The notes beneath the pieces were generated by a model that was not told where the DNA came from, made no database searches, and saw nothing but the letters and a program-made list of their open reading frames with translations. A stretch of DNA of 64,000 nucleotides. It comes from Yeosuana aromativorans (lineage in GTDB: Bacteria > Bacteroidota > Bacteroidia > Flavobacteriales > Flavobacteriaceae). The stretch lies in NCBI RefSeq assembly GCF_014646655.1, contig NZ_BMNR01000007.1, positions 1-64,000 of the forward strand, read 5' to 3'. Below, one piece after another: positions 22,423 through 26,199 of this stretch. A program made the position numbers and the translations under genes. Within the stretch, counting starts at the first letter, position 1, and each line of letters opens with the position of its first letter.

Positions 22423-23121
22423 ATGTCTCCAGATAATAAGCATTATCTACGTTGTTTAGAAACTCTTAAAGATTCCGTAATTTTTAAAAATCTTGAAAAA
22501 AGAGATATTCAGTCTGTTTTAAAATATATGACGAGAATAAAATGGGAAAAAGGGGTTTTTAAAAATAGTACAGAGTTTAATTCTTCCTTACATTTTATTA
22601 TTTCGGGGCGAATAAAAGGCTATCAAATAAATCCAAATACTGGTAGAGAGCATACCATGTTCATTCTCACTAAACACGATGTTTTTGATATTTTGAATTT
22701 GATGGACACAGAAACCCATGTGTTGTATTGGGAAACTTTAGATGACTTAGAAATCTTAACAATATCAATTACTGAAATGAGACGAATGTTGGCCGAAAAC
22801 CCTAAATTGAATTTTTCAACCTTAAAGTATTTAGGAAGTAGGGTTAGGATTCTTGAAGATGCGTCAAACGATATTTGTTTGCATAATACCTTAAGTAGAT
22901 TGTCAAGTTTACTCTTAAAATATTTCAACCAGCAATCCCATAAATTGGAAACCATCAATAATTTGCCAAATAGTGAAATAGCTAATTTAATTGGAACTAC
23001 CAGGGCAGTAGTAAACAGACATATTCAAGAACTAAAAAAAGCAGGAGCTATTTCTGTAAAGCGTAAGGAAATTGACATAGAAAATGTAGAAACCTTAATT
23101 GCCTTTGCTCATGACAATTAA
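22423..23121 (+). CDS. Crp/Fnr-family transcriptional regulator
   Basis: 232 aa. Residues about 20-135 are a cyclic-nucleotide-binding-like jelly roll (SSLHFIISGRIKGYQINPNTG, TMFILTKHDVFDILNLMD) joined by a long dimer helix to a winged helix-turn-helix at about 155-225. LPNSEIANLIGTTRAVVNRH is the HTH, with recognition helix TTRAVVNRHIQELKKAG. There is no N-terminal cysteine cluster as in Fnr, and the classical cAMP-contact motif is absent, so the signal is unknown. Two palindromes of 5-6-5 geometry at 23177-23192 and 23730-23745 just downstream are good candidates for its binding sites, making it the likely local activator of the following genes. Confidence 0.9.
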   Translation: MSPDNKHYLRCLETLKDSVIFKNLEKRDIQSVLKYMTRIKWEKGVFKNSTEFNSSLHFIISGRIKGYQINPNTGREHTMFILTKHDVFDILNLMDTETHVLYWETLDDLEILTISITEMRRMLAENPKLNFSTLKYLGSRVRILEDASNDICLHNTLSRLSSLLLKYFNQQSHKLETINNLPNSEIANLIGTTRAVVNRHIQELKKAGAISVKRKEIDIENVETLIAFAHDN

Positions 23122-23173: not shown

Positions 23174-23221
23174 AACTGCTACTTAAGTAGTAGTTAAATG
23201 ATTCTCTTCTAGCTATATTTG
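23174..23221 (+). promoter_or_regulatory. Palindromic Crp/Fnr-like site plus -7 element (site 1)
   Basis: Core palindrome TGCTACTTAAGTAGTA (23177-23192; near-symmetry extends to 23174-23195) is centred at 23184.5. TATATTTG (23214-23221) is a perfect TAnnTTTG -7 element beginning 29.5 bp downstream. The site covers the place where the -33 element would be. With a start near 23226 the palindrome centre lies at about -41.5, the class II activator position. It drives the PepSY-like gene at 23265. Confidence 0.65.
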
Positions 23222-23264
23222 ATTTAAAAATAAAGCCTGTAATCTCCCAGTAAATTTAATTGTT

Positions 23265-23705
23265 ATGGGAAAAATTCAAAATTATTTGAAATCAATATTG
23301 GCAAAAACACTCTTTGTTGCAGTGAACTGGCTACATAAAAACCCTGGCATAAAGATTAAAAAAGCCTTCAGAAAAAAGTATCCTAAATCGTCATTCCCAA
23401 CCTGGCAACAAATAGACAGATTTACTTGGGAAGTATCTTTTATTCTAAATAAAAATGAATATAAAACCTTTTTTGATACGAATGGGAACTGGTTACAAAC
23501 CAAACATTATGTTTCCTATTATAATTTGCCAAATTTAATAAAGAACAATTTCCGGTCATATGACAATTTTAAGAATCTTCAAAAAGTGTTATTGATAGAA
23601 AAGCCAGATGAATCATTGTTTGAGTTCCAAATGAATTCTGGTAATGGACCTTACAAAATAGTTGTTGACATAAATGGTAATGAAGTTAATCATAAAGCTT
23701 CATAA
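23265..23705 (+). CDS. PepSY-like (DUF2874-type) protein
   Basis: 146 aa. The C-terminal two-thirds resembles a PepSY-like/BLIP-like repeat: FPTWQQIDRFTWEVSFILN, EYKTFFDTNGNWLQTKHYV, a helix LPNLIKNNFRSYDNFKN, then LFEFQMNSGNGPYKIVVDIN. In Bacteroidota such domains are usually periplasmic, but the N-terminus here (LAKTLFVAVNWLHKN) is only weakly hydrophobic, so export is uncertain. The gene is directly downstream of the first palindrome/-7 promoter and begins the set that the Crp/Fnr protein may control. A binding or inhibitory role is possible; no enzyme motif is present. Confidence 0.6.
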   Translation: MGKIQNYLKSILAKTLFVAVNWLHKNPGIKIKKAFRKKYPKSSFPTWQQIDRFTWEVSFILNKNEYKTFFDTNGNWLQTKHYVSYYNLPNLIKNNFRSYDNFKNLQKVLLIEKPDESLFEFQMNSGNGPYKIVVDINGNEVNHKAS

Positions 23706-23727
23706 AGTTTTCTAAAAAAAATATTAA

Positions 23728-23774
23728 AGTGCTATTTAAGTAGCAGAACTCCTTTTAAAACTGATGTAATTTAA
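23728..23774 (+). promoter_or_regulatory. Palindromic Crp/Fnr-like site plus -7-like element (site 2)
   Basis: TGCTATTTAAGTAGCA (23730-23745) is centred at 23737.5 and differs from site 1 at two of 16 positions. TAATTTAA (23767-23774), a partial TAnnTTTG match, begins 29.5 bp after the centre, the same distance as at site 1. It would drive the transcript with the short frame at 23828 and the lipoprotein/YceI/Hsp20-like genes. Confidence 0.6.
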
Positions 23775-23827
23775 TTGATAATTAAAAAAATATTTAAAAA
23801 AGCATTAACAATTTAAAACGTATTAAA

Positions 23828-23902
23828 ATGAAAACATTAATTGATGAGAATTTATTTAAACGCTACTGGAGGTATATTGATCAACCAAATGCGAGTTCTT
23901 AA
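23828..23902 (+). CDS. Possible 24-residue peptide, first frame of the envelope/stress operon
   Basis: An ATG after an A-rich stretch opens a 24-codon frame starting MKTLIDENLFKRYWRYIDQP and ending at TAA. It begins about 50 nt after the start predicted from site 2 and 42 bp before the A-rich leader of the lipoprotein gene. It is charged and aromatic, without signal peptide or membrane segment. It could be a leader peptide, a remnant of a longer gene, or chance. I recognise no family. Confidence 0.3.
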   Translation: MKTLIDENLFKRYWRYIDQPNASS

Positions 23903-23946
23903 AAATCATATGAAATTGAATAAAGAATCTTAAAAACGATATTAAA

Positions 23947-24627
23947 ATGAAACCAAATAAAATTTTAACAATTTTTTTTATATCAGTTTTATTTGTTGGA
24001 TGTAAAAAAAATAATGACAATGATAATGCAAGCAAAGTCTTGGACAGCATAGTAAAAGATGAAGCGATAGATGAAGTGCCATACAAATCTGATGATTATT
24101 TTGATAAAGCGATAAAAGCTTATGAAGCAAATAATAAAATTGAAGCTTCAAAAGATATACATAAAGGTGTTGAAGCATTACATGCTGAGAGCAAGGATTT
24201 ATTGAGCTTGAATAAATTGAGTCTTGAAAACAGTATTGAACAACTAGAAAATATTTCTGGCAGACTTGACAACAACGAGGATATTTCATTAGAAGGTTTC
24301 AAAGACGCTGTTGTAAATGCAGAGTTGAACATTGCCCATGAGTATCTGTCACCAACAGAGGGCGTTTATATGCTGGTAAAACCTGAAAATATATCCTCAG
24401 CCAAAACAAAAAGGAATTTTAGTGCCATGATTTCAAATCTAAAACAAGAAGAAGGCAATATGAACAAATATGCAAAAAAAGAGAGTGAGGATTTATTAAA
24501 AGAAGGTGAGGAGCTTAAAAAAGAATTAGCTGCTTGGGAAACAAAAGCAAAAGAGTACTCCAAAAAAACTAATGAACATTTTAAAGTTTTCTATCCTGAT
24601 GAAAACTATCGAGATCTTGATTTGTAG
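23947..24627 (+). CDS. Lipoprotein with helical coiled-coil domain
   Basis: 226 aa. Signal peptide MKPNKILTIFFISVLFVGC with lipid Cys19, then an Asn/Asp-rich linker. The remainder is almost all helix: KAIKAYEANNKIEASKDIHK, ALHAESKDLLSLNKLSLENS, a middle segment around LNIAHEYLSPTEGVYML, and a strongly charged coiled coil KYAKKESEDLLKEGEELKKE. The family is not recognised; the layout is reminiscent of YfdX-like or other helical stress lipoproteins. It is the first full gene after site 2 and is followed by YceI, membrane and Hsp20-like genes, so an envelope-stress role is inferred. Confidence 0.6.
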   Translation: MKPNKILTIFFISVLFVGCKKNNDNDNASKVLDSIVKDEAIDEVPYKSDDYFDKAIKAYEANNKIEASKDIHKGVEALHAESKDLLSLNKLSLENSIEQLENISGRLDNNEDISLEGFKDAVVNAELNIAHEYLSPTEGVYMLVKPENISSAKTKRNFSAMISNLKQEEGNMNKYAKKESEDLLKEGEELKKELAAWETKAKEYSKKTNEHFKVFYPDENYRDLDL

Positions 24628-24684: not shown

Positions 24685-25242
24685 ATGAAACGGTCTAATT
24701 TTTTTCGATTTATCACAATAGTCTTTTTTACGTGTTATACAGTAATTGGGGCTTATGCGCAAGTAAACGATTCTTCCACCCAAATATCTTACAAGGTAGA
24801 TTTTGGTCCCACCTATCCCATAGAAGGTGATAGTAATCAAGTAGAAGGGAAAATTGAATTTAATGACGAAACGAGTGCGATAGAGAAAGTTTCTTTTGAG
24901 GTGCCCTTAAATTCATTCACTGGAATTAACTCTGGATATCTTGAATGGATAGCAAATGGTTGGTATAACCCAGATATGAGTTTTAAAAGCAATAAAATAA
25001 CCAAGACATCAGATAATAAATTGGTGGTTAAAGGTTATTTAGAATTCCGAAGAAGAAATGCTCCCATTGAAATTGATTTAATACGTAAGGATATAAACAA
25101 CAAAATCATTATGGAAGGCAATTTTGATATGAGTACAGGTGACTACTTTACTTTTCACCCGCCTTTTGAACTTGTGCCAAGTAGGATATCATTTAAAATT
25201 AAGTTGATTTTTGATGAGCCAGTTAAAAGTAATATGAGTTAA
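24685..25242 (+). CDS. YceI-like periplasmic lipid-binding protein
   Basis: 185 aa. Signal peptide to about Ala25. The mature part follows the YceI lipocalin-like order: ISYKVDFG, EGDSNQVEGKIEFNDETSAI, a VSFEVPLNSFTGINSGYLEW segment, MSFKSNKITKTSDNKLVVKG, then APIEIDL and a C-terminal FKIKLIFDEP strand. YceI proteins bind isoprenoid-like or amphiphilic molecules in the periplasm. The gene lies 57 bp after the helical lipoprotein and 9 bp before the membrane protein, in one operon. Divergence from typical YceI is moderate, so the ligand is open. Confidence 0.75.
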   Translation: MKRSNFFRFITIVFFTCYTVIGAYAQVNDSSTQISYKVDFGPTYPIEGDSNQVEGKIEFNDETSAIEKVSFEVPLNSFTGINSGYLEWIANGWYNPDMSFKSNKITKTSDNKLVVKGYLEFRRRNAPIEIDLIRKDINNKIIMEGNFDMSTGDYFTFHPPFELVPSRISFKIKLIFDEPVKSNMS

Positions 25243-25251
25243 AAATTAAAT

Positions 25252-25746
25252 ATGAAAACCGTAAAAAAACAAGAGTTAAGTATAACCAAACGCCATAATT
25301 GGTCCAAAAACCGCTTTGCATGGTTTTATGCCGTAATGATATTATTGGCGTCTGTTTTATTGGGAGTTGTACTTAAAATGGGTGGTACTTATGAATCTAT
25401 GGGGCTTCGTTCTATCAACATCTTTTTTATCATGATAGGGTTTTTTGTTCTCATCTGGGATTATAAAAGGACGAAGCACAAAAACCTGAAATTTATAGAC
25501 GCCTTTCTGCTTTGTGCCAGAACAGGATTTTATTATTGCTTGCTATATCTTCCAATCATATTGGTTTTTTTGGCCGATAGCAAAAATGAGTTGCAGCTAG
25601 TAGAAACTGATGAAACCTTTAATAACAATTTTTCCATAATTGCTATTGTGTTTTCAACCTATATAGAAACGGTTGCAACAGTTGTTATTGTTGGCATTGT
25701 AGCAGCTTTTACAGGCAACATGGGAGGGGGTAAATTAAAAAAGTAA
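25252..25746 (+). CDS. Four-helix inner membrane protein, DUF4199-like
   Basis: 164 aa. Four hydrophobic helices: WFYAVMILLASVLLGVVLK, INIFFIMIGFFVLIWDY, FYYCLLYLPIILVFLAD and the final IETVATVVIVGIVAAFTG. The layout of two helix pairs separated by a basic loop (KRTKHKNLK) resembles DUF4199-type proteins common in Bacteroidota. The function is unknown. It is 9 bp after the YceI-like gene and 9 bp before the Hsp20-like gene, so tightly co-transcribed. Confidence 0.55.
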   Translation: MKTVKKQELSITKRHNWSKNRFAWFYAVMILLASVLLGVVLKMGGTYESMGLRSINIFFIMIGFFVLIWDYKRTKHKNLKFIDAFLLCARTGFYYCLLYLPIILVFLADSKNELQLVETDETFNNNFSIIAIVFSTYIETVATVVIVGIVAAFTGNMGGGKLKK

Positions 25747-25755
25747 TATATAATT

Positions 25756-26199
25756 ATGTCACCAAGTACATATCCAAAAACACATTTTAATCTTGTTTCT
25801 GCTTATAATATGCCAACTCATGGCGAATATAAAACCAATGTTCCATATCTAGATATAATTCCAAATACAAAAAGCCTATCTCAAATTAAAATGACAGAAA
25901 CAGGTTTCGGTTATCATTATGAAATGAAAATACCGGGCTATATTAAAGAGGATTTTAATTTTTATAAGAGTAAAAATGATTTGGTTTTAACAACAGAGAA
26001 ACGAAAAGAGATCAAAACTGATAAAAAAGGAAATGATAATGGCTCAAGTCATTCATATTGTTATGCTTCTGCCTATTTCAAAATAAGTTTTCATTTGCCA
26101 AATAACGTAGATTGTGATGAAATTTTTGTGGACTATAATAATGAAATCTTGAGTTTTGATTTACTTAAATCAAAAAAACAAAATCAGCATAAAACATAG
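25756..26199 (+). CDS. Divergent Hsp20/alpha-crystallin-like protein
   Basis: 147 aa cytoplasmic protein. Residues about 50-140 follow the alpha-crystallin order: FGYHYEMKIPGYIKEDFNF, DLVLTTEKRKE, then an aromatic strand YFKISFHLPNNVDCDEIF and VDYNNEILSFDLLK. The last segment occupies the place of the usual G-V-L-x-I plus I-x-I region but lacks the clear Gly-Val-Leu. The N-terminal 45 residues are unlike typical small heat-shock proteins. It probably acts as a holdase-type chaperone or a derived scaffold. Its operon with envelope proteins suggests stress expression, likely through the upstream Crp/Fnr site. Confidence 0.65.
   Translation: MSPSTYPKTHFNLVSAYNMPTHGEYKTNVPYLDIIPNTKSLSQIKMTETGFGYHYEMKIPGYIKEDFNFYKSKNDLVLTTEKRKEIKTDKKGNDNGSSHSYCYASAYFKISFHLPNNVDCDEIFVDYNNEILSFDLLKSKKQNQHKT

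Follow-up and report, generated by a model that had tools for sequence, protein, structure and literature searches.

Palindromic sites at a fixed distance from a -7 box beside a flavobacterial Crp/Fnr-family regulator, and an apparently undescribed regulon

Downstream of a gene for a Crp/Fnr-family protein in Yeosuana aromativorans lie two nearly identical palindromes, each followed by a -7 element at the same distance. The first-pass annotation of this DNA had read the arrangement as an undescribed Crp/Fnr regulon, which raises the question of whether the palindromes are the binding sites of the neighboring protein and, if so, how they would act on the genes behind them. To our knowledge, few activators have been worked out in Bacteroidota, where the -7 box is TAnnTTTG, unlike in E. 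coli. The window is the whole 64,000-nucleotide stretch that was analysed (contig NZ_BMNR01000007.1, positions 1-64,000), taken from a genome of 3.76 Mb, and the features of interest within it are as follows:

22423-23121, + strand: Crp/Fnr-family regulator of 232 aa, the proposed activator (Pfam HTH_Crp_2 1.9e-12, cNMP_binding 1.6e-6).
23177-23192, + strand: site 1, TGCTACTTAAGTAGTA, proposed regulator binding site, center 23184.5, with counterparts behind orthologous regulators.
23214-23221, + strand: box 1, TATATTTG, a -7 element; with the box at -12 to -5, transcription would start at 23226.
23265-23705, + strand: small PepSY_like protein of 146 aa, the first proposed target (PF11396 8.8e-7, above the cut-off).
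23730-23745, + strand: site 2, TGCTATTTAAGTAGCA, proposed second binding site, center 23737.5.
23767-23774, + strand: box 2, TAATTTAA, a poorer -7 element; transcription would start at 23779 on the same placement of the box.
23776-23946, + strand: stretch in which Yeosuana marina has a conserved 181-aa PepSY-like gene, absent here (gene order, pairwise alignment).
23947-24627, + strand: 226-aa protein with a lipoprotein-like N-terminus (by eye), the first gene of more than 80 aa after site 2; no Pfam family.
24685-25242, + strand: YceI-domain protein (PF04264 3.5e-6).
25252-25746, + strand: 164-aa protein, probable membrane protein; no Pfam match in the window.
25756-26199, + strand: small heat-shock protein, HSP20 (PF00011 9.2e-6).

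The basic geometry was found as it had been annotated: TGCTACTTAAGTAGTA and TGCTATTTAAGTAGCA differ at two positions (6 and 15), the regulator gene ends 55 bp before site 1, and the center of each site lies 29.5 bp before its -7 box, with 37 nt from the first base of the site to the start of the box in both cases. A flavobacterial transcriptome study assigns positions -12 to -5 to the TAnnTTTG box (PMC9723704), and on that numbering this distance predicts that the sites are centered at -41.5. Box 2 fits the TAnnTT type less well than box 1; its counterpart in Y. marina reads TAATTTTA at an equal offset, and site 2 itself aligns with the Y. marina site preceding the 181-aa PepSY-like gene.

Within the window, a scan allowing three mismatches returned 14 matches against 7.5 expected, a number reached by 8 of 100 shuffles and thus weak evidence. 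Sites 1 and 2 are the only matches to TGCTACYTARGTAGCA in the whole genome at up to one mismatch, and the reversed control of this pattern has none. At up to two mismatches, TGCTAYTTAARTAGYA shows no excess over its control in the same genome (20+13 vs. 13+18), the other places being inside ORFs in 15 of 17 cases and intergenic in two (contigs C11 and C13 left out), and six relatives pooled at this threshold gave 28 sites and 28 control sites, which is no enrichment. Since loose matches do not rise above controls, the case for the motif is carried by position and spacing.

Both were followed across relatives of the regulator. A query with an alignment (family profile) yielded 75 loci with regulator orthologues, or 76 with the window, whereas a single-protein query of genome contigs found no relative. 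The titles of the 75 loci name flavobacterial genera or Flavobacteriaceae bins, with the exception of L094, titled Chlorobiota; Bizionia arctica accounts for two of them and several genera appear many times over, and the loci are mutually related rather than independent. The nearest orthologue (71% identity) is that of Y. marina, from the same genus as the window. An order-wide profile search (E 1e-35) returned 3 of 296 genomes, two of which belong to a single further genus of that family, and left the range as it was.

Beside these orthologues the dyad site is conserved. A core site lies within 300 nt past the regulator stop in 18, 35 and 54 of the 76 loci at up to zero, one and two mismatches, respectively; in the same test, palindromes whose halves had been shuffled gave means of 0.03, 0.95 and 9.1 (maxima 2, 4 and 26). 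The full site (up to two core mismatches) is present within about 160 nt past the stop in 53 loci, and in 49 of these TAnnTT begins at offset 37, with the full TAnnTTT in 39; the remaining four comprise Y. marina, with its box at 38, and three that resemble chance matches. When similar spacers were removed, a step that takes away kinship only in part, 33 of 37 loci retained TAnnTT at 37; the remaining offsets had 0.45 on average and never more than 3. The mean identity of these dereplicated spacers between site and box is just 28%, indicating that the spacing itself is constrained.

The same distance is also seen where the palindrome is incomplete: 15 of 26 loci without a convincing full site carry the promoter-distal half with a box at 37 (at most two mismatches in 9 positions), while no other offset exceeds three. 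The expectation that relatives would keep the motif near the regulator, at the same distance from a -7 box, was therefore borne out in 49 of the 76 loci for the full site and in 64 when the distal half is counted. In four loci the box stands at 38 instead of 37 (L092, L159, L162, L163). The last three of these are related loci with a half-site and a box at 38, like site 1 of Y. marina. In eight of the 76, the sequence right behind the regulator holds neither a site nor a distal half (up to two mismatches) combined with a box at either 37 or 38; among them, L150 has only a three-mismatch half at 37, and L095, L096, L098 and L101 have site-plus-box places elsewhere in the locus.

Across the entire set of 76 sequences (953 kb), exact core sites gave 70 strand-specific matches with 28 full TAnnTTT boxes at offset 37 and at most 4 at any other offset, while 30 shuffled-half palindromes averaged 1.9 exact matches with no box at 37. 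At up to two mismatches there were 57 boxes at 37, against at most 12 at other offsets and at most 10 for the shuffled palindromes. The distal half, TGCTA, is almost invariant, and the proximal half is looser (C or T at position 15, often T at position 16).

Two variations on this pattern were observed. In 10 of 14 Christiangramia/Gramella loci (L130, L133, L134, L136, L138, L139, L143, L144, L152 and L165), and additionally in Tamlana (L148), the box at 37 reads TAnnTTG(C/T) and not TAnnTTT; such boxes resemble the SM5 class among the promoters of F. psychrophilum (PMC9723704), and equal spacing may here serve a different promoter type. In genome G160, diverged palindromes with the half-sites TGCGA and TGTGA lie behind two regulator paralogues (L041:2288 and L044:2268), each with TAnnTT at 37, a case of drifting half-sites under constant spacing.

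The association of motif and regulator was also examined at the level of genomes. Among 199 genomes of the family, including that of the window, 22 carry an orthologue that reaches E 1e-20. At up to one mismatch, the motif is present in 15 of the 22 vs. 13 of the 177 without an orthologue; for the reversed control the counts are 4 of 22 and 17 of 177. An intergenic site with TAnnTT at 37 is found in 14 of 22 genomes with an orthologue vs. 1 of 177 without (Fisher p 4e-15, counting one match per genome and leaving out the match of G124 near a contig end). That single genome, G037, has the only intergenic site-plus-box among those lacking an orthologue, the matches in the other twelve being inside ORFs or without a box. 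It is a real exception, with several site-plus-box promoters and no orthologue at 1e-20; its regulator-like frames are diverged, the best profile match being 6.3e-19 with a stop inside the frame. The promoters of G037, together with the several first-look candidates for Crp/Fnr-type proteins per genome, could be taken to mean that the sites belong to a different regulator of this type encoded elsewhere, but the strong co-occurrence with orthologues of the neighboring gene and the physical linkage of the two in 64 of 76 loci make this improbable.

The neighboring protein has the domains expected of a Crp/Fnr-family member. A C-terminal Crp-type helix-turn-helix is present (PF13545, 47.4 bits vs. 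a cut-off of 27), its fold matching CRP structures, as is an N-terminal cyclic-nucleotide-binding-like domain (PF00027, 28.5 bits vs. 27.5). The AlphaFold model (mean pLDDT 91.8) has GlxR and Mycobacterium tuberculosis CRP (MtbCRP) as its top PDB matches, and these are the nearest solved structures by both sequence and fold. Both structures contain cAMP, which in CRP is held by a Glu and an Arg of the pocket. Aligned to GlxR, 40 orthologues differ at these positions: that of the Glu is Val, Ile or Leu in 39 and Thr in one, and that of the Arg is His in 33, Ser in 3, Arg in 2 and Thr in 2. Membership in the cAMP-dependent CRP subfamily was rejected on this ground, the pocket Glu and Arg being replaced in most of the 40. 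The FNR subfamily is marked by conserved cysteines that together carry an iron-sulphur cluster, and membership in it was likewise rejected; none of the alignment columns is all-Cys in the 40 orthologues, and the best (28 of 40) is a gap in the window protein. Because the pocket residues are replaced and a complete cysteine column is lacking, cAMP and an FNR-type iron-sulphur cluster are, from sequence, both unlikely as the signal. The best NCBIfam match of the regulator is NtcA, a cyanobacterial regulator with a ligand other than cAMP, but the score of 51.6 is far under the cut-off of 244.95, and the motif here, TGCTACYTARGTAGYA, is unlike the GTA-N8-TAC of NtcA.

Residues T193, R194, V196, N198 and R199 of the recognition helix are identical in all 40 sequences, and A195 is shared by 39. 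When the helix is aligned to SRETVNK of GlxR, Ala stands at the position of CRP Glu181; in the light of CRP genetics, this agrees with a half-site that lacks the second G of TGTGA. Glu181 is one of three base-contacting residues of CRP (PMC12531629). Upstream of the regulator gene (300 nt, up to one mismatch), no site was found in any of the 74 loci with enough sequence, and in the window the region before the regulator has none even at up to two mismatches; therefore, the regulator is not directly self-controlled through this motif.

Combined, these observations make it very probable that the palindromes, with the consensus TGCTACYTARGTAGYA, are sites for the neighboring homodimeric Crp/Fnr protein and serve class II-type activation. 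In this mechanism, the homodimer encoded just upstream would bind the palindromes, and a dimer at -41.5 would sit over the DNA adjoining the missing -33 element and, in class II style, switch on promoters with a -7 box of the TAnnTT(T/G) type. The class II geometry had been proposed from the two sites of the window, and it extends to the relatives, with the predicted -41.5 placement in 49 of the 53 loci with a site. Likewise, the remark that neither promoter has a clear -33 TTG holds more generally; since no one offset between 14 and 23 has TTG in more than 5 of the 49 loci, there is no consistent -33 element. We infer class II-type activation from this promoter geometry, which has a known model: at class II promoters of E. 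coli CRP and FNR, the dyad is centered at -41.5, the activator has two domains, and the -35-type element is weak or absent, all of which have counterparts here, the center at -41.5 being a prediction. The half-sites of those proteins are TGTGA (CRP) and TTGAT (FNR), whereas the half-site here is TGCTA and the box is the TAnnTT of Bacteroidota; the replaced cAMP pocket and the lack of the cysteine set further distinguish the present regulator from CRP and FNR, respectively.

As activation would follow from geometry, and as members of the Crp/Fnr family can also repress, the regulator might instead be a repressor at these sites; this we regard as very improbable, as a constant center at -41.5 without a consistent -33 TTG is the layout of class II activation and a repressor site would have little cause to hold one spacing across many promoters. 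Least probable of all, to the point of being hardly credible, is that the palindrome is an RNA hairpin terminating the regulator transcript at a coincidental distance from the box: most loci do have it some tens of nt past the regulator stop, the arms could pair into a 6-bp stem around a 4-nt loop, a T-run follows several copies and 29 of 50 sites have G-T at pair 2/15, a pairing still allowed in RNA, but pair 1/16 is T-T in 12 of 50 and T-G in one with no compensating change, the promoter-proximal arm is degraded in the 15 loci that keep the distal half and its box spacing, copies occur away from any regulator gene, including at a divergent promoter, and the fixed offset of 37 is left unexplained.

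The genes behind the sites indicate what activation by the regulator would produce. Genes were clustered over 79 sources (the 75 loci, the window slice, L072, L074 and L091, with L072 and L074 overlapping L092 and L098). In 64 of the 75 loci, the next gene on the same strand after the regulator belongs to one PepSY-like family (167-245 aa, median 184), which is probably secreted because of a signal-like helix at its start. Matches to PepSY_like are weak and limited to 7 of 50 members. In its predicted fold (mean pLDDT 83.5) the family most resembles periplasmic proteins of the DUF2874/BLIP-like kind, at a TM-score of about 0.4, and by sequence the family gave only weak matches to solved structures (best E 0.0016). 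This probably secreted PepSY-like protein, encoded right behind the site, would be the commonest output of the regulator.

In Y. marina, an orthologue of the 146-aa PepSY_like protein follows the regulator, and the order is site, 146-aa PepSY-like gene, site, 181-aa PepSY-like gene, 226-aa gene, YceI. The window has this order minus the 181-aa gene, with the second site retained. The 226-aa protein belongs to a cluster (15) present in 9 of 79 sources. Judging from the gene spacing, the YceI-domain and HSP20 genes are probably in the same operon; the Y. marina orthologue of the intervening 164-aa protein has a weak DUF4199 match (PF13858 0.003, below the cut-off).

Elsewhere in the 75 loci, 16 further strand-specific site-plus-box matches (up to one mismatch) were found; 14 are intergenic, and for 12 of the 14 a gene on the same strand lies no more than 450 nt away. 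The first genes behind further sites in the loci, G037 and G133 include those for ArsC-like, M1 peptidase, DUF6515, TolC-type (OEP), OMP beta-barrel, NDH-2 and DUF308 proteins, and one more has a DUF748 match just below the cut-off. Universal stress genes occur in the same gene runs, never as the first gene. In some genomes, the same promoter design is placed before NDH-2, DUF308, TolC-type exporter, ArsC-like and M1 peptidase genes, and universal stress protein genes come later in some of these runs. In Pareuzebyella, a DUF308 gene with such a site is followed by genes that look, by eye, like those of terminal oxidases. One palindrome of Pricia antarctica is flanked by divergent genes and has a box at 37 in both directions; the right-hand gene is the first ORF of at least 70 aa (a 65-aa ORF is closer).

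Several individual loci add to this picture of the downstream genes. At L095:8797-8812, one palindrome has a -7 box at 37 on both strands, between M1 peptidase and DUF6515 genes. In G037 (L091, L188), two universal stress genes and NDH-2 are near site-plus-box promoters. At L108:6733-7598, a sigma-70-family (ECF-like) factor replaces the PepSY-like protein after regulator and site, which suggests a rewired output. In the flanks of L099-L166, the regulator and PepSY-like pair is found in at least two unrelated gene contexts, either between helicase-like and cysteine-synthase-like genes or beside dnaK-like genes (all named by eye), as if the pair had moved as a unit.

Within the genome of the window, the regulon looks small, with the two local sites and a single weak candidate that precedes a gene for cytochrome c. 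This intergenic candidate (L015) was set aside as weak, as its nearest Y. marina matches are 28-32% identical. No extra candidate target was found to be shared by the two Yeosuana genomes, an empty answer that proves little.

Within Bacteroidota, a palindrome has also been assigned to BT4338 of Bacteroides thetaiotaomicron, known by the other names MalR and Cur. BT4338 is called Crp in its description and has the motif wwwTATGTTnTAnAACATAwww, obtained by comparative genomics, with sugar-use targets, a site upstream of its own gene and a metabolite signal of unknown identity (PMC3878776). It is the nearest described Bacteroidota case, being likewise a Crp-family regulator with a palindrome derived by comparative genomics, but the motif TGCTACYTARGTAGYA and the targets are different here and no site (up to one mismatch) precedes the regulator in 74 of 74 loci. 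Among the matches listed, the open-licence literature gave no description of the motif or the regulon, which is limited evidence, and the main text of the flavobacterial transcriptome study has no mention of Crp or Fnr (PMC9723704). The original proposal of an undescribed Crp/Fnr regulon is supported, with the qualifications that the regulon looks small in the genome of origin and that binding by this protein and the transcription starts are predictions; the regulon is real and strongly conserved, and apparently undescribed.

A broader reading is possible and decidedly tentative: that this is a widespread flavobacterial activator with its cAMP residues swapped for His (33 of 40) and a recognition helix of its own, responding to a respiratory, redox or envelope signal novel for Crp/Fnr proteins, with one secreted BLIP-like protein as its chief output, the two genes forming a sensor-effector module in different chromosomal settings. 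For the homodimeric Crp/Fnr protein acting in class II style at TGCTACYTARGTAGYA, the signal would probably be neither cAMP nor an FNR-type iron-sulphur cluster. The regulator, its predicted site and a base-pair-exact spacing are now defined across about twenty named genera, which brings class II-type activation on Bacteroidota promoters, as well as the role of the still unexplained PepSY-like proteins, within reach of direct tests.
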